From Comamonadaceae bacterium (GTDB taxonomy: Bacteria; Pseudomonadota; Gammaproteobacteria; Burkholderiales; Burkholderiaceae_C), in NCBI GenBank assembly GCA_021299555.1, contig JAJTGH010000002.1, positions 1 to 35,241 on the forward strand: a stretch of 35,241 nt of DNA, in the 5' to 3' direction. Both the position numbers and the translations under genes were made by a program. Position 1 is the stretch's first letter, and each line of letters opens with the position of its first letter. The notes under the pieces were generated by a model, which did no database searches, was not told the origin of the DNA, and saw only the letters and a program-made list of their open reading frames with translations. Shown one piece after another: positions 1,728-26,999 of the stretch.

Positions 1728-2855
1728 TCAGCGCCTGTCGCGCCGCGCCTGCACAGAACGCGAGAGCGTTTCCAGAACATCCAGCGACTGGTCCCAACCC
1801 AGGCAGGCATCGGTGATGCTCTGGCCGTAGGTCAGGGCCGAAACGCTGTCCTTGCCGGGCGAAAACTTCTGCGCGCCCTCCTGCAGATGGCTCTCGACCA
1901 TCACGCCAAAGATCTGACGTGAGCCAGCGGCGATCTGGCCGGCAATGTCACGGGCCACGTCCATCTGCTTTTGGTGCTGCTTGCTGCTGTTGGCGTGGCT
2001 GCAGTCAACCATCAAGGTCGGTGGCAAACCGGCTTTGCGCAAATCGTCGCAGGCCGCCTGTACGCTGGCAGCGTCGTAGTTGGGCGCCTTACCGCCGCGC
2101 AAGATGACATGGCAGTCCTTGTTGCCGTTGGTCTGGACGATGGCAACCTGACCGTTTTTGTGTACCGAGAGGAAATGGTGGCCGCGCGCCGCCGCCTGGA
2201 TCGCGTCTGTGGCAATTCGGATGTTGCCGTCGGTGCCATTTTTAAAGCCGATGGGCGCCGAGATGCCCGAGGCCAACTCCCGGTGCACCTGGCTTTCGGT
2301 GGTTCGCGCACCAATGGCACCCCAAGCAATCAGGTCGCCAATGTACTGCGGCGAGATCACATCCAAAAATTCGCTGCCCGCCGGCAAGCCCAGGCGGTTG
2401 ATGTCGATCAGCAGCTGCCGGGCCATGCGCAGACCTTCATCGATGCGGTAGCTCTCGTCGAGGTAGGGATCGTTGATCAGGCCCTTCCAGCCTACGGTGG
2501 TGCGCGGCTTTTCGAAGTACACGCGCATCACGATCTCCAGCGTGCCGGCGTATTTCACACGCTGCTCGAGCAGGCGCCGGGCGTAATCCAGTGCAGCCGC
2601 CGGATCATGAATCGAGCACGGACCGATGATGACCAACAGACGGTCGTCACGACCGGCCATGATGTCGGCAATGCCCGAGCGGGTGCGCCCAATCAGACTC
2701 TCGGCGGGAGTGCCATGAATCGGGAAAAAGCGAATCAGATGCTCGGGCGGCGGCAGCACGGTGATGTCCTTGATGCGTTGATCATCGGTCTGGCTGGTTT
2801 TGTCGATTGGACGCGCATACCAGGGCTCGCCGGTGGTCGGGGTGCTTGCATTCAT
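1728..2855 (-). CDS. aroG: 3-deoxy-7-phosphoheptulonate (DAHP) synthase, class I
   Basis: Condenses phosphoenolpyruvate with erythrose 4-phosphate to DAHP, the first step of the shikimate pathway, in the cytoplasm. The 375 residues match the AroF/G/H family in length and motifs. 'IGPCSIHDP' around residue 80 holds the metal-binding Cys. 'KPRTTVGWKGLINDP' (116-130) is the PEP/phosphate-binding signature. 'GFKNGTDG' and 'MVDCSHANSSK' follow further on. The start is ATG 2855 with AAGGAG six bases upstream. The gene is preceded by a leader peptide and an intrinsic terminator (see those entries), so expression should fall when charged Phe/Tyr/Trp tRNAs are plentiful. Which amino acid inhibits the enzyme itself cannot be read reliably, so the paralogue letter is tentative. 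Confidence 0.95.
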   Translation of the reverse strand: MNASTPTTGEPWYARPIDKTSQTDDQRIKDITVLPPPEHLIRFFPIHGTPAESLIGRTRSGIADIMAGRDDRLLVIIGPCSIHDPAAALDYARRLLEQRVKYAGTLEIVMRVYFEKPRTTVGWKGLINDPYLDESYRIDEGLRMARQLLIDINRLGLPAGSEFLDVISPQYIGDLIAWGAIGARTTESQVHRELASGISAPIGFKNGTDGNIRIATDAIQAAARGHHFLSVHKNGQVAIVQTNGNKDCHVILRGGKAPNYDAASVQAACDDLRKAGLPPTLMVDCSHANSSKQHQKQMDVARDIAGQIAAGSRQIFGVMVESHLQEGAQKFSPGKDSVSALTYGQSITDACLGWDQSLDVLETLSRSVQARRDRR

Positions 2856-2885
2856 GACGGACTCCTTGTGCTGAAAACGAAAGCT

Positions 2886-2917
2886 AAAAAAAAACCGCCG
2901 GGGTTTCCGGCGGTTTT
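2886..2917 (-). terminator. Attenuator terminator in the aroG leader
   Basis: On the - strand an 11-bp perfect stem (AAAACCGCCGG pairing with CCGGCGGTTTT, plus-strand arms 2891-2901 and 2907-2917) with a 5-nt loop runs straight into nine consecutive T residues. It sits between the leader peptide stop codon and the aroG Shine-Dalgarno sequence, so it would stop transcription before aroG. This is a textbook Rho-independent terminator shape in the place an attenuator requires. Confidence 0.92.
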
Positions 2918-2973
2918 GGTAGAGGGTCTGCTGCGTTTGTTGTCTGCTTACGCGCTGGCCTCTCGACCGCCGG
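2907..2973 (-). promoter_or_regulatory. Antiterminator helix competing with the aroG attenuator
   Basis: The segment CCGGCGGT at 2973-2966, inside codons 17-19 of the leader peptide, is complementary over 8 nt to ACCGCCGG at 2914-2907, which is one arm of the terminator. Between them AGAGG (2963-2959) can pair with CCTCT, and GCGT with ACGC further in, giving a coaxial antiterminator. A ribosome stalled on the aromatic codons (3-12) would leave this segment free. A ribosome reaching the stop codon would cover it. The geometry is seen in the sequence; the mechanism is inferred from known amino-acid attenuators. Confidence 0.75.
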
Positions 2974-3022
2974 GGGCGTCAGAGATCCAAAAGTAAGAAA
3001 AATAAAACGTTGCAAAAGTCAT
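2948..3022 (-). CDS. aroG leader peptide, Phe/Tyr/Trp-rich
   Basis: A 24-residue ORF beginning MTFATFYFSYFW and ending at TAA 2948-2950. Seven of residues 3-12 are aromatic (four Phe, two Tyr, one Trp). The rest of the peptide is ordinary and its codons overlap the antiterminator segment. Such clustering of regulatory codons, followed by a terminator and the first gene of the aromatic pathway, identifies a transcription-attenuation leader. There is no strong Shine-Dalgarno sequence. A -10-like TATATT lies only 6 nt upstream of the ATG, so the transcript may be leaderless at this ORF, or the promoter may lie further upstream in the end of tldD. Confidence 0.88.
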   Translation of the reverse strand: MTFATFYFSYFWISDAPGGREASA

Positions 3023-3028
3023 GAAGAG

Positions 3029-3058
3029 AATATAGCACAACCTCAATCGAGCCCACAA
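3029..3058 (-). promoter_or_regulatory. Candidate promoter of the aroG leader
   Basis: On the - strand TTGTGG (3058-3053) and TATATT (3034-3029) are 18 nt apart, a plausible sigma-70 pair. It would start transcription at or within a few bases of the leader ATG, so this call is tentative. Confidence 0.3.
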
Positions 3059-3078
3059 ACGATGCCGGCCGTGCACAC

Positions 3079-4599
3079 TCAGGCCGTTCCGCCGACCGTC
3101 AAACCGTCGATGCGCAGCGTCGGCTGACCCACGCCCACTGGCACACTCTGGCCTTCCTTGCCGCAGGTGCCCACACCCGAATCAAGCCTCAGGTCGTTGC
3201 CGATCATGGACACGCGGGTGAGCGCGTCCGGTCCATTGCCCACTATGGTGGCGCCCTTGACCGGGTACTGGATCTTGCCGTTTTCCACCCAATAGGCCTG
3301 GCTGGCTGAAAACACAAATTTGCCCGAGGTGATGTCCACCTGACCGCCGCCAAAATTGGTCGCGTACAGGCCTTTTTTGATGGACGCTACGATTTCATCG
3401 GGGCTCTTGTCGCCGCCCAGCATGTACGTGTTGGTCATGCGCGGCATGGGCATGTGGGCATAGCTCTCGCGCCGGCCGTTGCCGGTGGGCTTGACCTTCA
3501 TCAACCGGGCATTGAGCGAGTCCTGGATATAGCCTTGCAAAATGCCGTCTTCTATCAGTACGTTGCGGCCGCTGGCGTGGCCCTCGTCGTCCACATTGAG
3601 GGAGCCGCGCCGATCGGCCAGCGTGCCGTCATCGAGCACCGTGACGCCTTTGGCGGCCACGCGCTGTCCGATGCGCCCGGCAAAAGCGCTCGAGCCTTTG
3701 CGGTTGAAGTCGCCCTCCAGGCCATGGCCGACCGCCTCATGGAGCAAGATCCCGGGCCAGCCCGGGCCAAGCACCACAGTCATCTCTCCGGCCGGCGCGG
3801 GCCGCGACTTCAGGTTGGTCAGCGCCGATTGCACTGCCTCGTCGACATATTCGCTCACCAGGGCGTCGTCAAAATATGCCAGGCCAAAGCGGCCACCGCC
3901 ACCGGCTGATCCCATCTCGCGCCGGCCCTTTTGCTCGGCGATCACCGTCAGGCTCAGGCGCACCAAGGGCCGCACGTCGGCAGCCAACATGCCGTCGGCA
4001 CGGGCCACCATGACCACGTCATACTCCATGGCCAAGCCGGCCATCACCTGCACGACGCGCTTGTCCTTGGACTTGGCCATCTTTTCAACTTTTTCAAGCA
4101 AGGCCACCTTGGCGGTGCTGTCAAGCGTGGTGATCGGATCGAGCCCCGCATACAGCGATCGGCTGGAGGCCACCTTGACACTCGGGGCCCGCGCTTTGAC
4201 GCGGCGGCTTGCGCCGCAGGCGGCTATCGTGCGCACCGTTCGCGCCGCATCGAGCAAGCTCGCCTCAGAGATATCGTCAGAATAAGCGAACGCGGTTTTC
4301 TCACCACTGACCGCACGCACGCCCACCCCCTGGTCTATGCTGAAGGAGCCGGTCTTGACGATACCCTCTTCCAGGCTCCAGCCTTCGCTGCGTGTGTACT
4401 GAAAATACAGGTCGGCGTCGTCAGCGCCATGAGAGCTGATCTGTGCCAGGGCCCGACCCAGGTGCGCTCGAGTCAGACCGAACGGCGCGAGCAAAAGCTG
4501 CTCTGCCACGCGCAAGCGATCCTGGGTGCTGCTCTGACTGAGTCGGGCATGAGGCAAGGACGCCGGGAGCCCGGCAGCATGGGAATTGAGGGTATTCAT
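3079..4599 (-). CDS. tldD: Metalloprotease TldD
   Basis: TldD family protein, the partner of PmbA/TldE in a heterodimeric metalloprotease that trims unfolded peptides and matures some modified peptides. The 506 residues match the family apart from a slightly long N-terminus (E. coli TldD is 481). The zinc-site motif HEAVGH lies at residues 287-292 in the context 'GILLHEAVGHGLEGDFN'. The conserved C-terminal glycine-rich blocks 'MPRMTNTYMLGGD' and 'GVGTCGKEGQSVPVG' are present. I chose ATG 4599, although ATG 4620 and ATG 4701 are in frame and none has a strong ribosome site. No pmbA is present in the window. The gene follows rodA on the same strand after 70 nt. Confidence 0.93.
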   Translation of the reverse strand: MNTLNSHAAGLPASLPHARLSQSSTQDRLRVAEQLLLAPFGLTRAHLGRALAQISSHGADDADLYFQYTRSEGWSLEEGIVKTGSFSIDQGVGVRAVSGEKTAFAYSDDISEASLLDAARTVRTIAACGASRRVKARAPSVKVASSRSLYAGLDPITTLDSTAKVALLEKVEKMAKSKDKRVVQVMAGLAMEYDVVMVARADGMLAADVRPLVRLSLTVIAEQKGRREMGSAGGGGRFGLAYFDDALVSEYVDEAVQSALTNLKSRPAPAGEMTVVLGPGWPGILLHEAVGHGLEGDFNRKGSSAFAGRIGQRVAAKGVTVLDDGTLADRRGSLNVDDEGHASGRNVLIEDGILQGYIQDSLNARLMKVKPTGNGRRESYAHMPMPRMTNTYMLGGDKSPDEIVASIKKGLYATNFGGGQVDITSGKFVFSASQAYWVENGKIQYPVKGATIVGNGPDALTRVSMIGNDLRLDSGVGTCGKEGQSVPVGVGQPTLRIDGLTVGGTA

Positions 4600-12055: not shown

Positions 12056-12979
12056 CTACCAGGCCGGCGCCAGTTGCGCCAGACCCTTGGGCGCGCGGCG
12101 CTCGTCTTCGAAGGTCACGACCTCATAGGCTTCAGGGTGGGCCAGCAATTCGCGCAGCAACTTGTTGTTAAGTGCATGGCCGGATCGGAAAGCGCTGTAA
12201 GCGCCAATGATGGGCTTGCCCAGCAAGTACAAGTCACCCATGGCGTCGAGGATCTTGTGCTTGACGAATTCGTCGTTGTAGCGCAAGCCCTCGGCATTGA
12301 GCACCTTGTAGTCGTCCATGACGATGGCATTGTCGAGTCCACCGCCCAAAGCCAGGCCGTTGGCCCGCATCATCTCGACGTCCTTGGTAAAGCCAAAGGT
12401 GCGGGCCCGCGCGATGTCGCGCACGTAAGAGCCGGTGGCCATGTCAAATTGCACGCGTTGGCCGGTGGAGTCGACCGCGGGGTGATCGAAATCGATCTCA
12501 AAACTGAGCTTGTAGCCCTCATGCGGGCTCAGCGCGGCCCATTTGAGCTGAGCGCCCTGCCCTTCACTGACCTTGACCTCCCGGAGGATGCGTACAAAAC
12601 GCTTGGGTGCATCCTGCAGCGCAATGCCGGCCGACTGCAGCAAAAAGACAAAGGAGGAGGCCGAGCCGTCGAGGATGGGCACCTCTTCGGCCGTGATGTC
12701 GATGTACAGATTGTCCAGCCCCAGGCCGGCACAGGCCGACATCAGATGCTCAACCGTGAACACCTTGGCCTGTCCGGCTGAAATGGTCGAGGCCATGCGG
12801 GTATCGGTCACGGCGCTGGCCGACACAGCGATGTCCACCGGCTGCGGCAAATCCACCCGCCGAAACACAATGCCAGTATCCGGTGCGGCAGGACGCAGGG
12901 TCAGCTCGACCCGCTGGCCGCTGTGCAGGCCCACCCCCACGGCTTTGGTCAGGGATCGAAGAGTGCGCTGAGCAAGCAT
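12056..12979 (-). CDS. lpxC: UDP-3-O-acyl-N-acetylglucosamine deacetylase
   Basis: Zinc deacetylase that commits UDP-GlcNAc to lipid A synthesis. The 307 residues match the family (about 305). Zinc and catalytic residues are visible: Glu77-His78 in 'FTVEHLMSA', and His241 and Asp245 in '[14 protein letters not shown]'. The general-acid His is in 'GHALNNKLL'. The start ATG 12979 lacks a purine-rich ribosome site; the sequence just upstream is pyrimidine-rich (CTCCTC). A strongly structured 150-nt spacer separates it from ftsZ. It ends the dcw order, followed only by the small membrane protein gene. Confidence 0.97.
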
Positions 12980-13013
12980 GAGGAGATTTTAAAGGGCGAT
13001 CGATCCCCAGCGG

Positions 13014-13129
13014 GCGTTTGCAGGAACTGCCGGCTTGGCTGGGCGCTGTGGCTGATGCCAGTTTGCGCCCAGAGTCTGCGCCCGACAGGCCAAAGCCTGA
13101 GGGGACACAGACCCTGGGCCTGCAAACGC
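13014..13129 (-). promoter_or_regulatory. Structured ftsZ-lpxC intergenic RNA element
   Basis: The spacer starts directly after the ftsZ stop codon. On the - strand RNA, GCGTTTGCAGG (13129-13119) pairs with CCTGCAAACGC (13024-13014), 11 bp perfect. The next 11 nt (13118-13108) pair with 13078-13068; the only non-Watson-Crick pair is a G-U that exists only in this RNA sense. CAGGC (13099-13095) pairs with GCCTG (13090-13086) around a UUUG loop. An alternative 8-bp helix, CTGGGCGC (13072-13065) with GCGCCCAG (13046-13039), uses part of the second helix and so excludes it. No run of T follows, so this is not an ordinary terminator. Function is unknown. Confidence 0.65.
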
Positions 13130-14335
13130 TCAGTCGGCCTGCCTGCGCAGGAAGGCCGGGATCTCCAGATCGTCCATGCCGCCGGCGGCCAGGGCATCGA
13201 CCTTGGCGGCCGCCTGACTGCGGTTGTTGCGCCAGACGCTGGGCACCGACAGCGCTTCGTAGCTGGGCTGACCGGCAGCGCCCGCGCCATTGCCCATCGG
13301 ACCCACATTGACCGGCAGGTTGTCCGTACCGGTGCGCTGGATCACTTGCAAAGGAGGCGCTGCGCGGCGGGCACCCTGGCGATTCAAACCAGTGGCCACC
13401 ACAGTCACCCGCAGCTCGTCAACCAGCGATTCGTCGTAGGCGGTACCGTAGATCACGTGCGCATCGGGCGCAGCGAAGGCGCTGATGGTCTTCATGGCCA
13501 GCTTGGTCTCGTTGAGCTTGAGCGAGCCCTTGGCGGCGCTGATGAGCACCAGCACCCCCTTGGCGCCGTTCATGTCCACGCCGTCGAGCAGCGGGCAGGC
13601 AATGGCCTGCTCGGCCGCGATACGGGCGCGGTCCGGACCGCTGGCGCAGGCCGTTCCCATCATGGCCTTGCCAGGCTCACCCATCACGGTGCGAACGTCT
13701 TCAAAGTCTACGTTGACCAAGGCCCTGACGTTGATGATCTCGGCGATGCCGCCCACGGCGTTTTTGAGCACATCGTTGGCATGGGCAAACGCCTCGTCCT
13801 GCGAAATGTCTTCGCCCAGCACCTCCAACAGCTTCTCATTGAGCACCACGATCAATGAGTCGACATTGGCTTCAAGCTCGGCCAAGCCGGCGTCTGCATT
13901 GGCCGTGCGGCGAGGGCCTTCAAACTCGAACGGCTTGGTCACCACACCCACGGTCAAAATGCCCATCTCCTTGGCGATGCGGGCTATCACCGGCGCAGCG
14001 CCAGTGCCGGTTCCACCGCCCATGCCAGCGGTGATGAACAGCATGTGTGCGCCGTCGATGGCCGCTCGTATATCGTCTGCCGCCGCTTCAGCGGCCTCGC
14101 GGCCCCTGTCGGGCCTGCTGCCTGCGCCCAGGCCGGTGCCGCCGAGTTGAATGACCTTGTCCACCGCAATGCGGTTGAGCGCCTGCGCGTCGGTGTTGGC
14201 GCAGATGAACTCCACGCCCTGTACCTGGGTGGCGATCATGTGCTCGACTGCGTTGCCGCCGCCGCCTCCAACACCGATCACCTTGATCAGGGTGCCTTGG
14301 TTGAATTCCTCGATTTCCATCATTTCGATGCTCAT
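13130..14335 (-). CDS. ftsZ: Cell division GTPase FtsZ
   Basis: Tubulin homologue that forms the cytokinetic ring. The 401 residues have the GTP-binding glycine-rich segments 'GVGGGGGNAVEHM' near the N-terminus and the tubulin signature 'GGGTGTGAAPVIA' near residue 105. A long variable linker follows, then the conserved C-terminal peptide 'DDLEIPAFLRRQAD' that binds FtsA and other partners. The start is ATG 14335, preceded by GAAGGAGG seven bases upstream, the best ribosome site of the cluster. This fits the high FtsZ level needed. The 143-nt spacer to ftsA may hold an extra promoter, but I see no convincing one. Confidence 0.98.
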   Translation of the reverse strand: MSIEMMEIEEFNQGTLIKVIGVGGGGGNAVEHMIATQVQGVEFICANTDAQALNRIAVDKVIQLGGTGLGAGSRPDRGREAAEAAADDIRAAIDGAHMLFITAGMGGGTGTGAAPVIARIAKEMGILTVGVVTKPFEFEGPRRTANADAGLAELEANVDSLIVVLNEKLLEVLGEDISQDEAFAHANDVLKNAVGGIAEIINVRALVNVDFEDVRTVMGEPGKAMMGTACASGPDRARIAAEQAIACPLLDGVDMNGAKGVLVLISAAKGSLKLNETKLAMKTISAFAAPDAHVIYGTAYDESLVDELRVTVVATGLNRQGARRAAPPLQVIQRTGTDNLPVNVGPMGNGAGAAGQPSYEALSVPSVWRNNRSQAAAKVDALAAGGMDDLEIPAFLRRQAD

Positions 14336-14478
14336 GTGAGCCTCCTTCTTGTCTGCAGTTGCCTTGAATATGAATCGTTCTTCGTATCGAAACCCATGCG
14401 TTCATCATGAAGGGGGGTCGGCACCTCCTGAATGGGTCAGGCCATGAAAACGGGTGTAGCTTGCGCGGTGTTCATTCA

Positions 14479-15708
14479 TCAGAAATTCCCCACCAACCAT
14501 TCCTTGATCCGACCAAAAGCGTTGTGCACGCTGCCCGCTTTCTGGGCCACCTTCAGGCCGCGCATGCGAGCCAGGCGGGCCTCTTCCATCAGACCCATCA
14601 CAGTGGCCGCCCTGGGCTGGGCCACCATGTCGGCCAGCCCGCTTGAATAGCGGGGCAGGCCCCGGCGCACTGGCTTGAGAAAAATGTCTTCGCCCAACTC
14701 CACCATGCCCGACATGACCGCGCTGCCACCAGTGATCACAATGCCCGAAGACAGCATCTCCTCATAGCCCGACTCGCGAATGACCTGCTGCACCAGGGTG
14801 TAGATCTCCTCAACCCGCGGCTCGATCACGCCTGCGAGCGCCTGTCGCGAGAGCATGCGAGGGCCGCGGTCGCCCAGCCCCGGCACTTCCACCTGGGTTT
14901 CCGGATCGGCCAGCAACTGCTTGGCACAGCCGCTGTCGACTTTGATGTCCTCGGCGTCCTTGGTGGGCGTTCGCAGGGCCATCGCAATGTCGCTGGTGAT
15001 CAGATCGCCGGCGATCGGAATGACCGCGGTGTGCCGGATCGCGCCGCCCGTAAAAATCGCCACATCGGTGGTGCCGGCACCGATATCGACCAGCGCCACA
15101 CCCAATTCCTGCTCGTCCTGACTGAGCACAGCCAGACTCGAGGCCAGCGGGTTGAGCATGAGCTGATCGACTTCGAGCCCACAGCGGCGCACGCACTTGA
15201 TGATGTTTTCGGCCGCGCTTTGCGCGCCGGTGACGATGTGCACTTTGGCTTCGAGCCGAATTCCACTCATGCCGATGGGCTCGCGCACGTCCTGACCATC
15301 GATCACGAATTCCTGGGGTTCAACGAGCAAGATGCGCTGGTCGGTCGAAATGTTGATCGCCTTGGCCGTCTCGATCACACGCGCCACATCGGTCTGCGTG
15401 ACTTCTTTGTCCTTGACGGCGACCATGCCGCTCGAATTTCTGCCACGGATGTGACTGCCCGTGATGCCGGTGTAGACCCGCGAAATTTTGCAATCGGCCA
15501 TCAGCTCAGCCTCTTTGAGCGCCAACTGGATGCTCTGCACCGTGGCGTCGATATTGACCACCACGCCGCGCTTGAGTCCGTTGCTGGCGGCCACCCCCAT
15601 GCCGGCGAGCTTGAGTTCACCGCCGGGCAGCACTTCGGCGACCACCACCATCACCTTGCTGGTACCAATGTCCAGCCCCACCACCAGATCTTTGTATTCC
15701 TTGGCCAT
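14479..15708 (-). CDS. ftsA: Cell division protein FtsA
   Basis: Actin-like ATPase that tethers FtsZ to the membrane. The 409 residues contain 'VGLDIGTSKVMVVVAEV' (phosphate 1), 'VDIGAGTTDVAIF' (phosphate 2) and 'VITGGSAVMSGM' (adenosine motif). The C-terminal amphipathic helix 'FGRIKEWLVGNF' is the membrane-targeting sequence. ATG 15708 is chosen because AAGG lies eight bases upstream and MAKEYKDLVVG is the usual N-terminus. Longer in-frame extensions run into ftsQ. The gap to the ftsQ stop codon is 4 nt. Confidence 0.97.
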   Translation of the reverse strand: MAKEYKDLVVGLDIGTSKVMVVVAEVLPGGELKLAGMGVAASNGLKRGVVVNIDATVQSIQLALKEAELMADCKISRVYTGITGSHIRGRNSSGMVAVKDKEVTQTDVARVIETAKAINISTDQRILLVEPQEFVIDGQDVREPIGMSGIRLEAKVHIVTGAQSAAENIIKCVRRCGLEVDQLMLNPLASSLAVLSQDEQELGVALVDIGAGTTDVAIFTGGAIRHTAVIPIAGDLITSDIAMALRTPTKDAEDIKVDSGCAKQLLADPETQVEVPGLGDRGPRMLSRQALAGVIEPRVEEIYTLVQQVIRESGYEEMLSSGIVITGGSAVMSGMVELGEDIFLKPVRRGLPRYSSGLADMVAQPRAATVMGLMEEARLARMRGLKVAQKAGSVHNAFGRIKEWLVGNF

Positions 15709-15712
15709 AGAG

Positions 15713-16498
15713 TTACCTTGTTGCCTTGTTTGCCTGGACGGCCCCATCTGCCGCCACAGTGGTCACACCCCGCAACCGCAGCGCATAGCCGCTGGGATAG
15801 CGCAGATCGGCCGACTCGATGTTGCGTCCGTAACGCGATGATGTTTGCGAGACGGTGACAACGAAACGCCGCACCCGCTGCACGATCTCATCGATACTGC
15901 CGGATCCGATCTCGATCATGGCGCCGCTTTCCAGGCGCACGCGCCAACTGCCGCGACCGGTCAGTTCAAGCTGCGCCACACTGGTGTCGAGCAACTCAAA
16001 CACCGGGACAAGCGCGCGGTAGGCTTGCAACACCAGACCCGACTGTGCCCGTGGGCCCGCCAGGCGCGGCAACCCCTCGGCTTCGACATCGCCTTGATTG
16101 ACCTCGAACACCTCACCGTAGCTGTTGAGCAGACGGGTATCGTCGTCCAGCCCCCAGAGGGCCACCGGCAGATGCTCTTCAATGCGCACCCGCAGCCGAT
16201 CCGGAAAGTCCCTTCGCACCACAGCCAGCCGCACCCAAGGCACGGACTCAAAGGCCGCTTTGGCCTGCGCCAGATTCAGGGTGAAAAAATTGCCGGTGAG
16301 CTTGGGCGCAACGTTGGCCCGCAGAGTCACTGCGTTGTTGTGGATCAATTCATTTTCAATGCGTATGGCCTGCAGGCCGAAGCTGGGCTGACGCACGGAC
16401 CAATGCACGACAAGGGCCAAAGCCATGCCAGCAAACACAAGGGCCAGCAAAGCACTCAGGCTGTTCATCAACCGCACATCCATGGGCAAGGCGCTCAC
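15713..16498 (-). CDS. ftsQ: Cell division protein FtsQ
   Basis: Bitopic divisome protein that links FtsA/FtsZ to the FtsB-FtsL pair. The 261 residues have a short cytoplasmic tail, one membrane segment (about 14-32, '[18 protein letters not shown]') and a periplasmic POTRA domain starting '[16 protein letters not shown]'. The start GTG 16498 is preferred. It overlaps the ddl stop codon as GTGA and has GGAGG seven bases upstream. ATG 16483, five codons on, has a poor site. Length agrees with the family. Confidence 0.93.
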
Positions 16499-17463
16499 CG
16501 CAGGTCCTCCCCGTGGTCCAAGCTGGCCGAGACCAGAACCGCCAAGCACAGTTCCTCGTAGGACATTCCGGCCGCCAGGGCCGACATGGGCACCAGCGAA
16601 TGGCTGGTCATCCCGGGCGACGTGTTCATCTCCAGCAAGTGGGGCTGCCGTGTGGCGGCATCGATCATGACATCGGCACGCGCCCAGCCACGGCAACCCA
16701 GACTGCGGTAGGCCGCCAGGACAATCGCTGAGATGGCTTGCTGCTCGTTCGGCGGCAAACCACAGGGCACCAGGTACTTGACCTCGTCGGTGAAGTACTT
16801 GTTGTGATAGTCGTAATTGCCCTGCGGTGCCACGATGCGGATCAGGGGCAAGGCCTTGGCCTGATCGCCGCTGCCTAGCACCGGACAGGTGAGCTCCTCG
16901 CCGGCGATGAATTGCTCGCACAGGACGTCCGCATCGAAAGCGGCGGCCCGCTCGAGCGCCTCTTGCATCTGAGCCTCTTGCGTGACCTTGGTCAGCCCGA
17001 TGGAGGAGCCTTCACGGGCCGGCTTGACGATCAGCGGCAAACCCAGATCGGCGAGCACGGCAGCCACCTGGGCCGCAATGTAAGCGCCTTTGCGCAGCAG
17101 CACATACCTGGGTGTGGGCAAACCTTCGGACAACCAAAGGCGCTTGGTCATCACCTTGTCGATGGCCAGGCTCGAAGCCATGACGCCCGAGCCGGTGTAG
17201 GGCAGGCCCATCAACTCGAGGGCGCCCTGCACCGTACCGTCTTCACCAAAGCGACCATGCAAGGCAATGAAACAGCGTGAAAATCCCTCGGCCTTGAGGT
17301 CAAAGAGGGGACGCTGCGCCGGATCGAAAGCATGGGCATCGACGCCCCGCCCGCGCAAGGCCTGCAGCACACCCTGGCCGGAAAGCAGCGAAATCTCGCG
17401 CTCCGCCGAACGTCCGCCCATGAGCACGGCCACCTTGCCCAGGCTGCGAACATCCGCGCTCAT
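16495..17463 (-). CDS. ddl: D-alanine--D-alanine ligase
   Basis: ATP-grasp enzyme that makes the D-Ala-D-Ala dipeptide for UDP-MurNAc-pentapeptide. The 322 residues include '[14 protein letters not shown]' at the N-terminus, '[19 protein letters not shown]' with the ATP-binding Lys, and '[10 protein letters not shown]'. The metal-binding end '[16 protein letters not shown]' is also present. It belongs to the DdlB group found inside dcw clusters. ATG 17463 overlaps the murC stop codon (ATGA). Confidence 0.97.
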
Positions 17464-18866
17464 GATGCCGCTCCCGCCATCTCAATGACCTTGGCTGCCA
17501 CCTGTCCGATCGAGCCAGCACCCATGCACATCACCACATCGCCATCGCGGGCGTTGTCCACGATGGCCTGGGCCATGTCATCAATGGCCTCAACGAACAC
17601 CGGCTCGACCTTGCCTGCCACCCGCAGGGCCCGCATGAGCGCACGGCTGTCGGCTGCCACGATGGGCGCTTCGCCGGCGGCATAGACCTCGGCCAGCAGC
17701 ACGGCGTCGGCCTGACCGATGACCTTGACGAAGTCCTCAAAACAATCGCGCGTGCGGCTGTAGCGGTGGGGCTGAAAAGCCAGCACCAGACGCCGGCCGG
17801 GAAAGGCGCCACGCGCAGCGGCCAACGTCGCCGCCATTTCAACCGGATGGTGGCCGTAATCGTCGATCACGGTGCACTGCCCGCCGCCGGCCAAGCGAGC
17901 CTGACCGTAGCGCTGAAAGCGCCGGCCCACGCCGCGAAATTCAGACAGGGCTTTTTGCACTGCTGCGTCGGGCACGTCCAACTCAACCGCAATGCTCACC
18001 GCAGCCAGGGCGTTGAGCACATTGTGCAGACCCGGCAAGTTGAGGACCACAGGCAAGTCAGGCAGCGTCACACCATTGCGCCGCTGAACCGTGAAATGCA
18101 TCTGCCCCTGTACATGCCGCACATCCACCGCCCGCACCTGCGCCTGCTCGCCCAGACCGTAACTGGTGATCGGGCACGACACCTGAGCAAGGATCTCGCG
18201 CACCGCCACATCGTCCGTGCAGAGCACCGCGGTTCCGTAAAAGGGCATGCGGTGCAAGAAGTCGACAAAGGCCGACTTGAGCCGCCCGAAATCATGCCCA
18301 TAGGTCTCCATGTGGTCCGCATCGATGTTGGTGATCACCGCCATGACCGGCAGGAGATTGAGAAAGGACGCATCCGACTCGTCGGCCTCGACCACGATGT
18401 AATCGCCCGAACCGAGCTTGGCATTGGCCCCCGCACTGTTGAGCCGACCGCCAATGACGAAGGTCGGATCCAGGCCGCCTTCGGCCAACACGCTGGCCAC
18501 CAAACTGGTGGTGGTGGTCTTGCCGTGCGTGCCCGCAATCGCGATGCCTTGCTTCAGGCGCATCAGCTCGGCAAGCATCAGGGCGCGGGGAACCACGGGA
18601 ATGTGTTTGGCCCGTGCAGCGCGCACCTCCGGGTTGTCAGACTTGACCGCTGTCGAGGTGACCACGGCATCGACCGAGGCCAAATTGGCTGCCGCGTGTC
18701 CAACGAAGGTGCGGATGCCCAGCCCCGAGAGCCGGCGCAAGGTGGCGCTGTCGGCCAGGTCCGAGCCCGAGATCTGATAGCCAAGGTTGTGCAGCACCTC
18801 GGCGATGCCCGACATGCCCGAGCCACCCAGACCAATGAAGTGGATGCGTTTGACGGCGTGCTTCAT
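17460..18866 (-). CDS. murC: UDP-N-acetylmuramate--L-alanine ligase
   Basis: Cytoplasmic Mur ligase that adds L-Ala to UDP-MurNAc. The 468 residues begin with the Rossmann-like UDP-binding block '[20 protein letters not shown]'. The ATP loop is '[18 protein letters not shown]', where the His of GTHGKTT is characteristic of MurC. The C-terminal ligase domain contains '[10 protein letters not shown]' and 'FQPHRYSRT'. ATG 18866 overlaps the murG stop codon. Confidence 0.98.
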
Positions 18867-19999
18867 GACAGCAGCTCCTCGCAGGCACTGACCAGCGTCT
18901 GCGTGGCTTGGGTCTTCTCCAGCCCCTTGGCGGCCGTGGCCCTCCTGAGCAACTCGGTGCGGTCCAGGCCGGCGAGCAACTCGGCCAGGGCCGCGGCGCT
19001 GAGCGACTGCTGTGGCATCAGCCAGCCGCCGCCGGCATCGACCAAATACTGAGCGTTTCGGCTCTGGTGATCGTCAACAGCAAAGGGAAAGGGCACAAAC
19101 ACGGCGGCCGCACCCACCGCGGCAATTTCGGTGACCGTGGATGCGCCCGCCCGGCAAATGATCAGGTCCGCTTGAGCAAACGCCGCCGCGGTGTCTTCAA
19201 TGAAATCGGTCAGATCGGCCTGCACCCCAGCGGCCTGATAGTTCGCGCGCAGCGCATTCAATTGACCAGCGCCACTTTGATGGATGACCTGGGGACGCTT
19301 GGCCTCGGGCAACAGCGCCAAAGCCTGCGGCACCTGCTCATTGAGCGCCTTGGCACCCAGGCTGCCGCCGACCACCAGCAGCCGCAAGGGTCCTTGGCGA
19401 CCCGCAAAACGCTGGGCCGGTGCAGGCTGCGACAGGAACCCGGCGCGCAGCGGGTTGCCCACCCATTGCGCCTTTTCGAGCACCCCGGGAAAGGCCGTGA
19501 AAACGCGGTCAGCGACCTGGCAAAGCACCCGGTTGGCCAAGCCCGCCACACTGTTTTGTTCATGCAGCACCAGGGGCTTGCCCAGCAGCACGCTCATCAT
19601 GCCGCCGGGGAAGGTGATGTAGCCGCCCAGACCGACCACCACATCGGGGCGAATGCGGCGCAACAGGGCCAGGCTTTGCCAGAAGGCTTGCAGCAAACGC
19701 ACAGGCAGCAGCGCCATGGTCAGAAGGCCCTTGCCGCGCAGGCCGCCAAAGTCGATGCAGTCGAAGGCCAGCCCACGCGCAGGCACCAGCTGGCTCTCCA
19801 TGCTTGGGCGCTGGGCCGTGCCCCGCCCGCCAAACCAATGCACCCGCCAGCCCCGCTCGCGCAAAGCCTCGGCCACGGCCAAGCCCGGGAAGATGTGGCC
19901 GCCGGTGCCACCGGCCATGACCATGGCACAAGGCGCATGGGTCCGCATTCGGACGGACTCTGCGGGCATAAGGGGTTGCGGCGACGCGCCCGTACTCAT
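18863..19999 (-). CDS. murG: Lipid II synthase MurG
   Basis: GT28 glycosyltransferase that adds GlcNAc to lipid I on the inner membrane face. The 378 residues contain the two G loops '[19 protein letters not shown]' and '[12 protein letters not shown]'. The donor-sugar region '[25 protein letters not shown]' is present in its parts. The N-terminus is about 20 residues longer than usual. ATG 19999 overlaps the ftsW stop codon and follows a G-rich ribosome site, but the internal ATG 17 codons later (MRTHAPC) would give the standard length. Confidence 0.97.
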
Positions 20000-21255
20000 A
20001 CGCGCCCCCCCTTCATCAAGATGCGGTTCTCGTGGTCAACGCGCAGCACCACGGCCAGCGCCAGGATGTTCATCATGATGGCGGAGCCGCCATAGCTCAT
20101 GAGCGGTAAGGTCAGGCCCTTGGTGGGCAAGGCGCCCAAGTTGACGCCCATGTTGATGAACGACTGAAAGCCGATCCAGATGCCCACGCCCTGAGCCACC
20201 AGACCAGAAAACAGGCGGTCCATGGCAATGGCTTGCCGACCGATGTGCATGATGCGGCGCGTGAGCCACAGAAACAGCGAAATGACCACCAACACACCGA
20301 TCAGGCCAAACTCCTCGCCGATGACCGCCATCAAGAAGTCGGTGTGCGCCTCGGGCAGCCAGTGCAGTTTTTCGATGCTCCCGCCCAAGCCCACGCCGGT
20401 GAACTCGCCACGTCCGAAGGCAATGAGCGAATGGGACAGCTGATAGCCCTTGCGGATGGCATTTTCAGCAGACCACGGATCGAGGTAGGCGAAGATGCGC
20501 TCCCGCCGCCAGGGGCTGGCCCAGATCATGACGGCAAAGGCCAGCACCACGATGGTGGCAATAAAAACGAACATCCGGGCGTTGACCCCACCCAAAAAGA
20601 GGATGCCCATGGCAATGACCGCGATCACCAGGAATGCACCCATGTCCGGCTCGGCCAGCAAGAGCATGCCAACCACCCCCACGGCCACGCCCATGGGCAG
20701 GACGGCGCGGAAAAAGCGTTCCTTGACCTCCATCTTGCGAACCATGTAGTCGGCCGCATACATGAGCACCGCAAACTTGGCCAGCTCTGACGGCTGAAAG
20801 TTCAATACCCCAAAAGAAATCCAACGGCGTGCGCCGTTGACACCACGCCCGATGAAAGGAATGAGAACCACCACCAGCAGCAGCAGCGATGCAACAAACA
20901 GCCAAGGCGCCGCCTTTTCCCACGTCGACATCGGGATCTGGAAAGCCAGCACCGCGACAACCAGCGCCACCGCCAGAGAAAAAGCGTGCCGCAGCAGGTA
21001 ATGGGTGCTTTCATAGCGGGAAAACTTGGGGTTGTCCGGCATGGCCACCGAGGCCGAATACACCATCACCAGGCCCCACAAGAGCAAGGCCATGGTCACA
21101 AACACCAAGGCCTGGTCAAATCCAAGCAGGCGCACCGGCATCGAGGGCCCCATCACGCGTCCGGGCATGCCTGTGCGAACCGGCAAGGCGCTGGCCGGCT
21201 CGGCCGCAACCATGCCCAGAGACTGCCTGATGCGATCGAGCCAGGCCGTCGTCAC
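19996..21255 (-). CDS. ftsW: Septal SEDS peptidoglycan polymerase FtsW
   Basis: Polytopic SEDS glycosyltransferase that works with FtsI at the septum. The 419 residues have about ten membrane segments. The FtsW-type block '[29 protein letters not shown]' is present in its parts near the C-terminus. The loop '[16 protein letters not shown]' is typical of FtsW. The position between murD and murG is the normal dcw place. The start ATG overlaps the murD stop codon. Confidence 0.97.
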
Positions 21256-22946
21256 AGCGTCACCCCATGCTCTTGGGCCAACTCAGCGACCGTCTGGCAA
21301 AAAACCTGCCCCCGGTGGTTGTAGTCTCGAAACATGTCAAAGCTCGCGCAGGCCGGTGAAAGCAGCACCGCATCGCCCGATTGCGCCTGGGCAAAGGCCA
21401 ACGCGACGGCGTCCTTCATGTCCTGGGCATCATGCAAAGGCACGCGCGTCGATGCCAAGGCTTGACGCAGCAGCGGCGCATCGCGCCCAATGAGCACGAC
21501 CGCGCGGGCATGTCGCGAAACAGGCGTGGCCAGGGGCTCGAAGTCCTGGCCTTTGCCCTGGCCGCCCAAAATCACCACCACCTGACGTTCGGCGCCAAGT
21601 CCCTCCAGGGCCGCGACGGTCGCACCCACATTGGTGCCTTTGCTGTCATCAAAAAACTCGATGCCCTCCAGCACACCCACCGGCTCAACCCGGTGCGGCT
21701 CGCCGCGGTACTCGCGCAGCCCATGCAGCATGGGCGCCAGCGCACAACCGGCGGCCGTTGCCAAGGCCAAAGCTGCCAACGCGTTGCAGGCGTTGTGCCG
21801 GCCTCGGATCTGCAAAGCCTCGGCCGGCATCAGGCGCTGAATGTGCAGCGCTTCGTCCTCGTCCTTGCGGCGCTTGATCGTCTCGTCGGCCTCTGCGGCG
21901 CGCACCAACCAGGTCATGCCGGCGACGCTCTCTAAGCCCCAGTGACCGGCGCGGGCCGGCATGTCCATGCCAAAAGTCAGATGGTTGCGCACCAGCGGCG
22001 CACGCGACTTGCCCTTGACCGGCAAGGGCGCTGGCAACTGGCCCATCACCAGGGGATCTTGCCGGTTGAGCAGCATCAACCCCCGCTGACCATACACGTG
22101 GGCTTTGGCCTGGGCGTACGCCTGCATGGAGCCGTGCCAGTCCAGGTGATCCTGGGTCAGGTTGAGTACGGTGGCTGCCGTTGGCTCGAAGTTGTCCACC
22201 CCATCGAGCTGAAAGCTCGAGAGTTCGAGCACCCAGACCTCGGGCAAGTCACCGGCATCGATCGTTGCGCCCAAGGTGTCGAGCAAGGTCGGGCCGATGT
22301 TGCCCGCCACAGCCACGCTTTTTCCTGCGCGCTGCACCAACTGGCCAGTGAGCGCCGTCACCGTGGTCTTGCCGTTGGTCCCTGTGACCGCCAGCACCTT
22401 GGGCCGATAGCCAGGCTCGGGCGCCGGTGGAGCTGCCACGGTCAAGGGTGTGGCCTCATCGGCATCCACGGCCAGCGCCATCTCGCCGGGATCGAGGTCA
22501 GGGCGATCTTGGGCCTTGGCCACCAACACAGGCTGCGGCTGCGGCTCCAGTTCCTGCGGCGGTTGCACAATCACGTCGGCCTGGGCCATGGCAGCCACCG
22601 GCTCGGGCTGGGCCAATTCGGCCAGCGCCTGGGCAAACAGGCTCAGCTCGTTGCCCACATGCAGACCCGTTGCGCGCGCGGCATCCACCACCGGCGCCAC
22701 CTCGGCCGGTGACAGGCCGGGACTTTTAAAAACGGCCTGCTGACCTTGCACCAAATCGGCCGTCAGCGGACCGCTGACGAACACCGCCTGCGGACAGTGG
22801 TAGCGCAAGGCAGCCAGCTGCGGGGGTTCGGGCCGGGTGTCGGCCACGGTGACCTGCGCGCCAAAGCGCAAGCACCAACGCACCAGCGCCAGACCCGATA
22901 GGCCCAGCCCCAGCACCAGCACGCGCTTGTCTCGCAGATTCTTCAT
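21252..22946 (-). CDS. murD: UDP-N-acetylmuramoyl-L-alanine--D-glutamate ligase with a long insertion
   Basis: Mur ligase that adds D-Glu to UDP-MurNAc-L-Ala. The 564 residues compare with 438 in E. coli. The N-terminal UDP-binding domain is '[17 protein letters not shown]' and the ATP loop is '[15 protein letters not shown]' starting near residue 187 (about 110 in E. coli). The C-terminal domain includes '[17 protein letters not shown]' and '[19 protein letters not shown]'. About 75 extra Pro/Gln/Glu/Ala-rich residues (roughly 108-182) separate the first two domains. A second charged insertion, '[14 protein letters not shown]', lies in the central domain. ATG 22946 overlaps the mraY stop codon. 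Confidence 0.96.
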
Positions 22947-24121
22947 CGCAGTTTCAAAGTGGACAGGCCAACCAGGCACAGCAGCATGGTGATGATCCAG
23001 AACCGAACCACCACCTGCGTTTCCTTCCAGCCGCTTTTCTCGAAATGATGGTGCAGCGGAGCCATCTTGAAAAATCGACGGCCTTCGCCAAACTTCTTCC
23101 TGGTGTATTTGAAGTAAACCACCTGAGTCATGACCGACAAGGCCTCGACCACAAAGATGCCGCCCATGATGGCCAGTACGATCTCCTGGCGCACGATGAT
23201 GGCGATCGTGCCCAGGGCCGCGCCCAAGGCCAGGGCGCCCACATCGCCCATAAAGACTTGGGCCGGATGGGTGTTGAACCACAAAAAGGCCAAGCCTGCA
23301 CCGGCCATGGCTGCGCAAAAAATCAACAGCTCGCCTGAACCCGGGATGTAGGGCATGAACAGGTATTTGGAATACACCGAGCTTCCCGTGACGTAGGCGA
23401 ACACGCCCAGGGCTGAGCCGACCATCACCACCGGCATGATGGCCAGACCGTCCAGGCCATCGGTCAGGTTGACCGCATTGCTCGAGCCGACGATCACCAA
23501 GTAGGTGAGGACGACGAAGCCAAAAACGCCCAGGGGATAACTGACTTCCTTGAAAAACGGCAGCATCAGGCCGGCCTTGGGCGGCAGGTTCACGTCAAAG
23601 CCTGAGCGCACCCAATTGAGCGCCAGTTCAAGCACCTTGGCATTGGAGCTCTCTGAAATGCTGAACACCAGATACAGCGCTGCCACCAGGCCTATGACCG
23701 ACTGCCACAAGTACTTCTCGCGCGAAGGCATGCCCTCAGGGTCTTTGTTGACGACCTTGCGCCAGTCATCGACCCAGCCGATCGCACCGAACCCCAGGGT
23801 CACCACGAGCACGATCCAGACAAAACGGTTGGACAGATCGAACCAAAGCACAGTGGAGATCGCAATCGACAGCAAGATCAGAACACCCCCCATGGTCGGC
23901 GTTCCGCTCTTGACCAGATGGGTCTGAACTGCATACTCGCGAACAGGCTGGCCGATCTTGAGTGAAGTCAGACGCCGGATCACCCAAGGGCCGGCCGCCA
24001 AGCCAATGAGCAGGGCCGTCAGAGCCGCCATCACAGCCCGGAAGGTGAGGTACTGAAACACCCGAAAAAAGCTCAGCTCGGGCGACAGCGCCTGCAGCCA
24101 CTGGGCCAGCCACATCAGCAT
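22943..24121 (-). CDS. mraY: Phospho-N-acetylmuramoyl-pentapeptide transferase
   Basis: Integral membrane enzyme that transfers phospho-MurNAc-pentapeptide to undecaprenyl phosphate, making lipid I. The 392 residues have about ten membrane segments. Catalytic Asp-rich '[13 protein letters not shown]' and the histidine motif '[11 protein letters not shown]' are intact. '[12 protein letters not shown]' near the N-terminus is family-typical. ATG 24121 is chosen because AAGGAG lies five bases upstream. ATG 24115, overlapping the murF stop codon as TGATG, is the alternative. Confidence 0.97.
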
Positions 24122-25503
24122 GCGTGCTCCTTCGTGGCCTGACCACAATGGGACTCGATGGCCTGAACCACCCGCTCCATGCGCATGAAGCGAGAGCCTT
24201 TGACCAGCACGCTGGCAACACCGGGCAACACCGAGGGCAAGGCAGCGAGCAACTGCTCGACCGTCTCAAAATGACGCGCGCCCGGGCAAGCCGGGACAGC
24301 ATGACGCATCAGCACACCAGTGCACCAGAGCAGCTCTATGCCCAACCTGCTGGCCCAGGCGCCGGCCTCTTCATGGAACTGCGGCCCCCGGTCGCCGACC
24401 TCGCCCATATCGCCCAGCACCAGCAGGCGCGGCCCCGGGAGTTCGCGCAAAACCTCGATGGCTGCACGCACCGAGTCCGGGTTGGCGTTGTAGCTGTCGT
24501 CGATCAGGGTCAGCGGCGCGCCGGCAGGCCCTTGCAGCGACCGAGCGCGCGAGCGACCCTGTACCGGCTCGAAAGACGACAGCCCCTGAGCAATGGCTTG
24601 AAGCGCAACGCCCGCCGCGATGGCGCAACTTGCTGCGGCCAACGCATTCTTGACGTTGTGGCGGCCAGCCACCTTGAGCGTGAAATTCAAACGGCCTTGC
24701 GGCGTCAGGGCGTGCACTTGCCAACTGCCGCCCAACGAATCGGCCTGCGCGGTCACATCAGCCGGCCCTTCCAGGGCAAAAGTCAGCACCTTGCGCTCGC
24801 CCGCCAGACGTCGCCAAAGCGCGGAGAAGGCGTCGTCGGCCGGAAAGACTGCTGTGCCATCGGCTGGCAAAGCGCTGAGGACGGCACCGTTTTCAAGCGC
24901 CACCGCCTCAACCGTGGCCATGAACTCCAGATGCTCGCGCTGCGCATTGTTGACCAGCGCGACCGTGGGTTGGGCCATCTGCGCCAGACGGGCGATCTCG
25001 CCGGGGTGGTTCATGCCCAACTCGAGCACCGCGATGCTGTGCTCGGCGCGCAGGCGCAGCAGCGTGAGCGGCACACCGATGTCGTTGTTGAAATTGCCTT
25101 GCGTGGCCAGAGCCGCGGATCCGGCGTGGGCACGCAAGATGGCAGCGATCATTTGCGTCACCGTGGTCTTGCCATTGCTGCCGGTCACAGCAATCAGCGG
25201 ACCTTGCAGGCGCTGGCGCCAGGCCAGCGACAGTTGGCCCAGGGCCTGCCGACTATCGGCCACCTCCAGACCCGGCAAACCCGCAGACTCCAGGCCCCGC
25301 TCAGCCACTGCAGCGACTGCACCGGCGGCACGCGCCTGGGGCAAGAAATCATGCGCATCAAAGCGCTCGCCGCGCAGCGCCACGAACAGATCGCCCGGCT
25401 GCAAGCTGCGGCTGTCGGTATGTACGCGACCAATTCGCAACGCGCCGTCTCCAACCAGGCGCGAGCCGGGCAGCATCTGATGGGCCTGGGCCAGCGTCAT
25501 CAT
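24115..25503 (-). CDS. murF: UDP-MurNAc-tripeptide--D-alanyl-D-alanine ligase
   Basis: Adds D-Ala-D-Ala to the UDP-MurNAc-tripeptide, completing the pentapeptide. The 462 residues contain the ATP loop '[18 protein letters not shown]', '[15 protein letters not shown]' and the C-terminal '[16 protein letters not shown]' and '[10 protein letters not shown]'. These are all MurF hallmarks. It starts at the first of two adjacent ATG codons, overlapping the murE stop codon. Confidence 0.97.
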
Positions 25504-26999
25504 GAGGTCACCGCCTTGCGCTGCTGGCGCAAGAGCAAGGCACGCTGCGCCTGTTGGCGATCGGAAAACGCACGCCTGTGGCCGAGCACCTCCTGGTAGT
25601 CCTCATGCCCCTTGCCCGCAACGAGCACCACATCGGCCGCTTGAGCCTGCTGCAAAGCCTGCTCGATGGCGCTGGCACGATCGAGTTCAACCTGCGCCCG
25701 GGCTGCTTGCTGCAGACCCGCAATCATGGCCTGCACAATGGCCTGGGGCGACTCGCTGCGCGGGTTGTCACTCGTGAGCACCAGCCGATCGGCGGCACGC
25801 TCGGCCACAGCGGCCATCAGCGGACGCTTGAGGCGGTCACGGTCGCCTCCACAGCCAAACACCACCCACAACAGCCCACCTCGTGCGTCAGCGACCGGAC
25901 GCAAAGCCCGCAAGGCATGCTCGAGCGCGTCGGGGGTGTGGGCGTAGTCGATCACCACCAAAGGCTCGGCCGTCCCGCCCACCCATTCCATGCGCCCAGG
26001 CACGGCCGTGATCCGGGCGCAGGCAGACACCGCCTGAGCCAAATCAAGCCCCAGGCTGCGCAGGACGGCAATCACACCGAGCAAATTGCTGACGTTGTAG
26101 TGGCCGACCACCCCGGCGCTGAGCGTGTGGCTGCGATGGCCCTCGTGCACATCAAAGACCATGGTCGCCTGGGCAATGCGCAGGTCTCGTGCCTGCAAGC
26201 GGGCGGACGATTGACAGGAAAAAGTCCAAAGGTCCAACTGGCCCTCGCGCTCCAGACGTTGTGCCAATTCGGCGCCCTTGGGATCGTCGATGTTGACCAC
26301 TGCCACGCGCAGGCCGGGCCAGTCAAACAGCCGGGCCTTGGCCTGCCAATAGGCCTGCATGCTGCCGTGGTAGTCCAGATGATCTTGGGTGAAATTGGTG
26401 AAGATGGCGGTGTGGACCTTCAGGCCCTCAAGCCGCCCCTCGGCCAGCCCAATGGAGGAGGCCTCCAGGGCGCAGGCGGTGCAACCCCCGTCGAGCAGGC
26501 GCCTGAGTTCGCGCTGCAGCAAGACCGGGTCGGGCGTGGTCAGGCCGTTGGGCGTCATCTGCCCAGGCTCGCCAACGCCCAGCGTGCCAACCACCGCGCA
26601 GCGCCGCCCGGCTGCCGCCAAGGCCTGCGCAATCCACCACGCCGTGGACGTCTTGCCGTTGGTGCCAGTGACGGCCAGCACCTGCATGGCGGCACTGGGG
26701 TGGTCAAAAAATTGCGCTGCAATCGATGCGGCCGACAACTTCAGGCCCGCATAACAGGCCAGCCGGGCATCTCCGAGGTCCAGTCCCATGCAATCGCTGC
26801 CCTCGTGTTCGATCAGGCAGGCTGTGGCACCGGCTTCGAGCACTGCCGGCACGAAGCGGCGCGCGTCGGTCGCCGCACCAGGCCAGGCCAAAAATGCGTC
26901 GCCGGCGTGCACGCGACGGCTGTCTGCATGGAGCGTGCCCAAGGTTCTCAGCCTCAGCCAGTCCACGGCTTGCTCTGGGCTGTGGAGCACGGTGCTCAA
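25500..26999 (-). CDS. murE: UDP-MurNAc-L-alanyl-D-glutamate--2,6-diaminopimelate ligase
   Basis: Adds the third stem residue of peptidoglycan. The 499 residues show the ATP loop '[18 protein letters not shown]', 'TNFTQDHLDYHGSM' and the C-terminal 'TSDNPRSESP'. The DNPR motif indicates meso-diaminopimelate rather than lysine specificity, as expected for a Gram-negative. The ATG overlaps the ftsI stop codon. Confidence 0.97.
   Translation of the reverse strand: MSTVLHSPEQAVDWLRLRTLGTLHADSRRVHAGDAFLAWPGAATDARRFVPAVLEAGATACLIEHEGSDCMGLDLGDARLACYAGLKLSAASIAAQFFDHPSAAMQVLAVTGTNGKTSTAWWIAQALAAAGRRCAVVGTLGVGEPGQMTPNGLTTPDPVLLQRELRRLLDGGCTACALEASSIGLAEGRLEGLKVHTAIFTNFTQDHLDYHGSMQAYWQAKARLFDWPGLRVAVVNIDDPKGAELAQRLEREGQLDLWTFSCQSSARLQARDLRIAQATMVFDVHEGHRSHTLSAGVVGHYNVSNLLGVIAVLRSLGLDLAQAVSACARITAVPGRMEWVGGTAEPLVVIDYAHTPDALEHALRALRPVADARGGLLWVVFGCGGDRDRLKRPLMAAVAERAADRLVLTSDNPRSESPQAIVQAMIAGLQQAARAQVELDRASAIEQALQQAQAADVVLVAGKGHEDYQEVLGHRRAFSDRQQAQRALLLRQQRKAVTS

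Follow-up and report, generated by a model that had tools for sequence, protein, structure and literature searches.

A putative transcription attenuator with an aromatic leader peptide precedes aroG in many families of a betaproteobacterial order

The stretch of DNA analysed here (35,241 nucleotides, referred to as the window) carries, upstream of aroG, a leader that is very probably a ribosome-mediated transcription attenuator. An aromatic amino-acid attenuator had been proposed at this position in the initial annotation, and the comparative analysis upheld the proposal at the level of sequence: the leader open reading frame (ORF) is conserved, it contains and is followed by RNA segments that could exchange pairing partners and that co-vary, these segments lie at a characteristic distance from the aromatic codons, and a promoter element occupies a constant position in the closer relatives. 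The controlled gene encodes DAHP synthase, the first enzyme and entry step of aromatic amino-acid synthesis; its product scored well above the cut-off of the general class I model (Table 1) and below that of the narrower AroG model NF006723 (541.1 bits, cut-off 568). Upstream of the leader lies tldD, on the same strand as aroG. Elsewhere in the window, the look of the translations points to a long run of cell-wall and division genes (12056-29911, minus strand), which we take to be lpxC, ftsZ, ftsA, ddlB, murC, murG, ftsW, murD, mraY, murF, murE, ftsI, rsmH and mraZ.

Table 1 Features of the aroG leader region in the window
Feature	Position	Strand	Basis or remark
aroG, class I DAHP synthase, controlled gene	1728..2855	-	TIGR00034 aroFGH, 533.6 bits (cut-off 173.2)
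AAGGAG, Shine-Dalgarno-like, for aroG	2862..2867	-	Read from sequence
T tract of the intrinsic terminator	2886..2890	-	Follows on from the TTTT of the stem
Segment 4, terminator 3′ arm, CCGGCGGTTTT	2891..2901	-	
Segment 3, terminator 5′ arm, AAAACCGCCGG	2907..2917	-	Could pair with segment 2 or segment 4
Leader ORF (uORF), 24 codons and TAA, MTFATFYFSYFWISDAPGGREASA	2948..3022	-	Sequence; similar ORF in 67/80 aroG upstream regions
3′ arm of the 1:2 hairpin	2971-2959	-	
Segment 2, putative antiterminator strand in the ORF, CCCCGGCGGT	2966..2975	-	Repeats the terminator 3′ arm region exactly
Segment 1, 5′ arm of the in-ORF hairpin, TCTCTGACGCC	2975..2985	-	Hairpin of -11.0 kcal/mol
Aromatic control-codon run, codons 3-12 (F3, F6, Y7, F8, Y10, F11, W12)	2987..3016	-	Sequence
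Predicted extended -10 element, TGCTATATT	3029..3037	-	Ends 6 nt before the leader ATG

The 24-codon leader ORF of the initial annotation is present (3022-2948, minus strand), with the seven aromatic codons described for positions 3-12, Phe, Tyr and Trp all being represented. An intrinsic terminator of 11 pairs with a 5-nt loop and a T tract follows (2917-2891, minus strand), succeeded by AAGGAG and then aroG, so that the terminator stands just before the aroG ribosome site as had been reported. An antiterminator segment had been placed in codons 17-19 and credited with an 8-nt resemblance to one terminator arm; its location was correct, the actual span beginning with the final base of codon 16 and reaching codon 19, and the copy exists but is 10 nt long rather than 8, CCCCGGCGGT being an exact string that joins the two loop bases preceding the terminator 3′ arm to the start of that arm. 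A hairpin within ORF codons 13-22, absent from the earlier description, together with the terminator completes the 1:2, 2:3 and 3:4 layout of a classical attenuator. The folding energy of the leader was lower than that of all 200 shuffled sequences (z = -4.45; 0/200 as good), and a loose scan of positions 2400-4300 found one terminator relative to a shuffled mean of 1.7, so that the terminator alone is not beyond chance.

In the proposed mechanism, transcription would start at or beside the leader ATG, and the first ribosome would load on a leaderless end and translate the ORF. When charged Phe-, Tyr- or Trp-tRNA is scarce, the ribosome would stall in codons 6-12 and cover segment 1, leaving segment 2 to pair with segment 3 ahead of the synthesis of segment 4; RNA polymerase would then proceed into aroG. 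When charged tRNA is ample, the ribosome would pass over segment 2, segments 3 and 4 would form the terminator, and aroG would be off.

Conservation was assessed in contigs scanned with AroG, from which the best 80 of at least 592 loci were kept; one of these (L018) had no upstream region, giving 80 regions in all, those of the window and 79 loci. With the ORF defined as one starting at ATG and holding at least five aromatic residues in 10 codons, an aromatic ORF was found upstream of aroG in 67/80 regions, relative to 0 on the reverse strand and a mean of 0.9 in shuffled sequence, and lowering the threshold to four aromatics gave 68/80, relative to 6 and 4.6, respectively. A terminator-like hairpin followed the aromatic run in every one of these 68 leaders (lowest score 15.1; hairpins of the relatives were scored without a shuffled control). 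The ORF was missing from 12 of the 80 regions (L031, L033, L034, L035, L043, L048, L050, L054, L068, L071, L074 and L077), which include three Polynucleobacter, two Cupriavidus and metagenome-assembled genomes labelled Planctomycetota, Verrucomicrobiia and Gemmataceae, and their best hairpin scored 12.2 or less or was absent under a narrower loop limit than that used for the 68. The comparison with related genomes that the initial annotation had suggested found the ORF kept in close and more distant relatives, with compensatory changes between lineages. In Candidatus Burkholderia humilis (L055) the ORF departs from the frame of its relatives after the fifth aromatic codon, losing Trp, and extends through the terminator, possibly reflecting decay in a symbiont genome. 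Five leaders (L014, L015, L023, L026 and L028) have an enlarged terminator loop, AAGCTGAAAAGCC, that could form a small hairpin of its own.

The copy of the terminator arm within the ORF was followed across the same leaders. An exact GGCGG copy is present in 65 of the 68 (it is absent in L004, L029 and L036), and the base beside this core changes in concert in the ORF copy, the 5′ arm and the 3′ arm of the terminator, the three positions reading C-G-C in 33 leaders, T-A-T in 15, A-T-A in two and G-C-G in one; the exceptions among the 65 are a T-G wobble in the ORF pairing in five leaders and a mismatch in nine. An exact ORF copy of at least 6 nt was found in 116 of 142 leaders (these 68 and 74 from the order sample described below) relative to a mean of 24.4 in shuffled sequence (at most 33), some of the 116 being T-rich matches elsewhere in the ORF (e.g. 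L138, L154 and L162). When terminator arms were permuted among leaders the observed total was reached in 0/500 permutations, a figure that is no strict probability because related sequences are not independent. RNAalifold applied to the closer group found only the terminator, with a covariation term of -0.04 and no pair changed on both sides; since the core is invariant within this group, few positions carry the co-variation. Of the 65 leaders, 32 read the motif in frame 0 (GGC GGN), 32 in frame 2 (GCG in frame) and one in frame 1, and the peptides after the aromatic run vary by lineage (PGGREA, TAAGEA, PLADREG, PKAVE); as the copy is read in different frames, it is the RNA that is conserved and not the peptide.

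A covariance model (R1) was built from 44 leaders including that of the window; its E-values are rough. The window's own genome contains one strong match (E 3.9e-29), the next best being at E 0.017. In an order sample of 300 genomes including the window's own, 150 matched R1 at E ≤0.01, many at the terminator end of the model only, and among the matches listed 85 genomes, the window's own included, had a match to the whole model. Of the 84 whole-model matches fetched (window's own excluded), 74 have an aromatic ORF before aroG, and these span 14 family labels (f1, f3, f4, f8, f10, f11, f12, f13, f20, f23, f30, f32, f40 and f44); an aromatic leader precedes aroG in all eight other genomes of the window's family. 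Eight of the 84 have no aroG in the fetched stretch, three from family f28 having a different aromatic leader and the remaining five resembling terminators of other genes. Two f44 genomes (L119 and L120) have aroG and an ORF below the threshold. In L119 the aromatic residues of the leader, a weaker one that the criterion missed, are Y, F and F (MKTCYAHFTFPTALAAGDD). Upstream of aroG in L120 the RNA segments and terminator are kept and the ORF, identified by eye (MHASPRPLRFCRPRSTAVGRQ), has a single Phe codon, possibly a case of lost or altered sensing. The leader was demonstrated in at least 75 genomes of the order, own included, relative to 233/300 with a TIGR00034 gene; this is a lower bound, in part because of the search filters, and the aroG leader appears from these sequences to be widespread in the order, universality being a larger claim than the sample supports. 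In a class-wide sample R1 matched 7/229 genomes at E 1e-4, namely the window's own, two of its family, two from f63, one from f89 (terminator end only) and one from f169. At the two f63 loci, aroG is accompanied by an aromatic ORF (SFYFWYYF in L178, RFYRWYYF in L179), and the f89 and f169 loci (L180 and L181) lack aroG in the stretch retrieved.

The near-absence of a 5′ untranslated region (UTR) before the leader ATG, noted in the initial annotation, gained backing from promoter position in 44 of 45 closer relatives and is confined to that group, which comprises the window and its closer relatives (AroG identity 72-86%, 45 leaders). In these 44 leaders the distance from the end of the best -10 element to the leader ATG is 6-9 nt, a placement reached in shuffled sequence by a mean of 6.6 leaders and at most 15; most of these elements are of the extended type (TGnTAnAnT). 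In the Burkholderia-like (14 leaders) and Oxalobacteraceae-like (nine leaders) groups the best -10 element is located 25-47 nt upstream. With an extended -10 ending 6 nt before the ATG, the transcript start in the window is predicted at the ATG or within 1-2 nt of it, and a leaderless transcript beginning at or beside the leader ATG is predicted from sequence for these 44 leaders of the closer group. No Shine-Dalgarno-like tetramer was found before the leader ATG in any of the 68 leaders. A sigma-70 scan found no promoter, due to its requirement for a -35 box.

For stall folding, a ribosome was placed at each codon in turn and the RNA beyond its edge (+12) was folded as far as segment 3. Mean 2:3 pairing was 1.00 with the last aromatic codon in the A site and fell to 0.69 and 0.02 when the stall was moved one and four codons on, respectively, and the last productive stall fell 0-4 codons past the last aromatic codon in 65/65 leaders (-1 to +3 with an edge of +15). 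This switch position largely repeats the spacing between codon and copy, as in all 65 a gap of 8-21 nt separates the end of the last aromatic codon from the ORF copy. Naked RNA to segment 3, with no ribosome, favoured 2:3 pairing in 25/65, indicating that protection by the 1:2 hairpin is not strong in every leader. When the RNA extended until the GGCGG of segment 4 was just complete, 27/65 leaders, including the window, never exceeded 0.5 for 2:3, and with the complete terminator equilibrium folding preferred the terminator even with a stalled ribosome, 2:3 exceeding 0.5 in only 5/65; the switch must therefore be kinetic. Of the E. coli controls, trpL behaved like the window, with 2:3 pairing at the Trp codons in short RNA and the terminator in full RNA, and pheL retained 2:3 pairing in full RNA for stalls at Phe codons 6-12. 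As a known trp attenuator fails the same equilibrium test, this outcome is expected if the choice is kinetic. For window RNA ending in the middle of segment 4, values were 0.14-0.25 for stalls at F6-F8, 0.57 at Y10, 0.59 at F11 and 0.65 at W12, making Y10, F11 and W12 the best aromatic stall sites, and the non-aromatic codons I13 and S14 both gave 0.72. With only the first two bases of the segment 4 GGCGG transcribed, every aromatic codon gave at least 0.86; the values shift with the RNA end, and the codon ranking depends on the assumed transcript length.

Codon content bears on which amino acids would be sensed. Counted over the first 18 codons, all 142 leaders have Phe, 133 have Tyr and 85 have Trp, Trp being found in 11/14 Burkholderia-like and 0/9 Oxalobacteraceae-like leaders; these counts make Phe and Tyr the core, with Trp lineage-specific. 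On the broadest reading, which in our estimation falls just short of an even chance, one attenuator would set the aromatic entry step across 14 or more families of a single betaproteobacterial order (Burkholderiales, judging from the named relatives) by reading the charging of Phe- and Tyr-tRNA and, in many lineages, Trp-tRNA; in the window's group, Tyr-Phe-Trp would lie at the switch point of a leaderless mRNA on which ribosome and polymerase would set off together. That one stalled ribosome senses all three amino acids is suggested by codon content, which is not proof of sensing. A serious competitor, which we consider quite possible and yet lean against, is that the attenuator is real and senses one or two amino acids (Phe, perhaps Tyr), the Trp codon being incidental. 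The uneven residue counts and the absence of Trp from the Oxalobacteraceae-like leaders fit such restricted sensing, as does the report, in the relevant passage of a review, that the Corynebacterium glutamicum leader aroR before aroF, with Phe-Tyr-Phe, responds to Phe and not Tyr (PMC11802643). The closer group argues against it, since F, Y and W are all held by 40/45 of its leaders and the string YFW by 32/45, and in the window Y10, F11 and W12 gave the highest predicted antitermination of the aromatic codons with segment 4 half made. The notion that possessing only one DAHP synthase would make a three-way sensor necessary gained no support: two TIGR00034 matches were found in 7/8 further members of the window's family, and one in the window's own genome, which is incomplete (82.85%) and in which no type II DAHP synthase was found. 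Phenylalanine codons in the 68 leaders are 198 TTT and 95 TTC versus 39 and 192 in aroG of the same named loci; a TTT preference as a special leader signal was rejected for the window, whose 21 checked genes also favour TTT (181 TTT, 127 TTC).

Two further readings would deny the leader its attenuator role or make it secondary. The hairpin might be an ordinary terminator of the upstream tldD next to an unrelated chance ORF, as could be imagined from the order of the genes, tldD being followed on the same strand by an intrinsic terminator, and from the finding that a terminator-like site as such is no rarer than chance in the region. This we judge extremely improbable: a promoter element stands at a conserved place in between, the ORF is kept beside aroG in 14 family labels of the order sample and co-varies with the terminator through its copy, and ORF and strong hairpin are jointly missing in the 12 regions that lack the ORF. 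That the main product is instead a small peptide or a trans-acting small RNA, as reported for the Sinorhizobium meliloti trp leader, has a precedent in peTrpL and rnTrpL, described as acting in trans in the relevant part of PMC7298713, and the terminated RNA here would be about 135 nt; it too seems improbable. The differences between lineages in the peptide after the aromatic run, where the frame differs, speak against a peptide product, and an RNA role would stay compatible with them.

At the gathering cut-off, no Rfam leader family was found in the window or in the loci of 20 relatives, the window scoring 20.4 bits against Phe_leader (RF01859, cut-off 55), and below-cut-off matches to sroD and Phe_leader were set aside as likely terminator matches. 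Three leader peptides each searched against NCBIfam and Pfam gave no match. As no family in these databases matches the leader, annotation likely misses it. The attenuation mechanism itself is known, as in trp- and phe-type attenuators; what appears new is a widespread aroG leader without a matching family. E. coli trpL and pheL likewise combine a uORF containing control codons with an antiterminator/terminator exchange, and differ in serving one amino acid each and other genes (trpE and pheA). E. coli ilvL is a multivalent attenuator with codons for three branched-chain end products in one leader; it resembles the present case in joining three end products of one pathway and differs in that these are branched-chain amino acids. 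Proteobacterial attenuators were reportedly treated by Vitreschak et al. in 2004, and Neshat et al. in 2014 are said to have described the aroR leader of C. glutamicum aroF. The aroA of the Vibrio aroA-tyrA arrangement presumably encodes a DAHP synthase.

No paper on a betaproteobacterial aroG attenuator was found in the open-access literature at title and abstract level, and such a leader may have been mentioned before. Among the published cases found, C. glutamicum aroR comes nearest; control of aroF by Phe and Tyr is stated for it in the passage concerned of PMC7356990. This leader likewise places mixed aromatic codons before a DAHP synthase gene under ribosome-mediated attenuation, and differs in belonging to another phylum and in having Phe-Tyr-Phe only, with no Trp reported in the passages on this leader; the likeness is one of description. 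The S. meliloti trpL attenuator RNA begins at the leader ORF ATG, according to the part of PMC7298713 that deals with it; the present leader is predicted to start likewise, and trpL differs in being specific for Trp and controlling trpE(G). Table 7 of Bonner et al. gives database-predicted attenuators for tyrA operons including those of Vibrio and Bordetella (PMC1173090). The Vibrio aroA-tyrA operon and the Bordetella aromatic supraoperon are thus also proteobacterial aromatic-pathway operons with predicted attenuation, and they differ in gene arrangement and in that no leader peptide is given in the described parts of that paper (PMC1173090). The words DAHP and aromatic are absent from the main text of Naville and Gautheret (PMC2965389), and TyrR and TrpR control aro genes in gammaproteobacterial lineages according to the relevant section of a comparative regulon study (PMC5343134).

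For many betaproteobacteria, the aroG leader gives a concrete answer, open to test, to the question of how the pathway to Phe, Tyr and Trp is controlled at its first step. Nature also supplies a series in which some leaders have Trp codons and others lack them, and likewise for a predicted 5′ UTR; this series is suited to tests of multivalent sensing and leaderless initiation. A distinct aromatic leader was observed in family f28 (L112, L126, L175 and L137). In the 6.6 kb available for L137, no aromatic-pathway gene was seen by eye among ORFs of at least 110 amino acids. The f28 leader, which reads MITFSAVFNAYFYWYRSSRRLQGASLD in L112 with a close variant in L175, has a CGGCGG segment and a downstream terminator, and stands before an uncharacterised gene and a small membrane-like protein.
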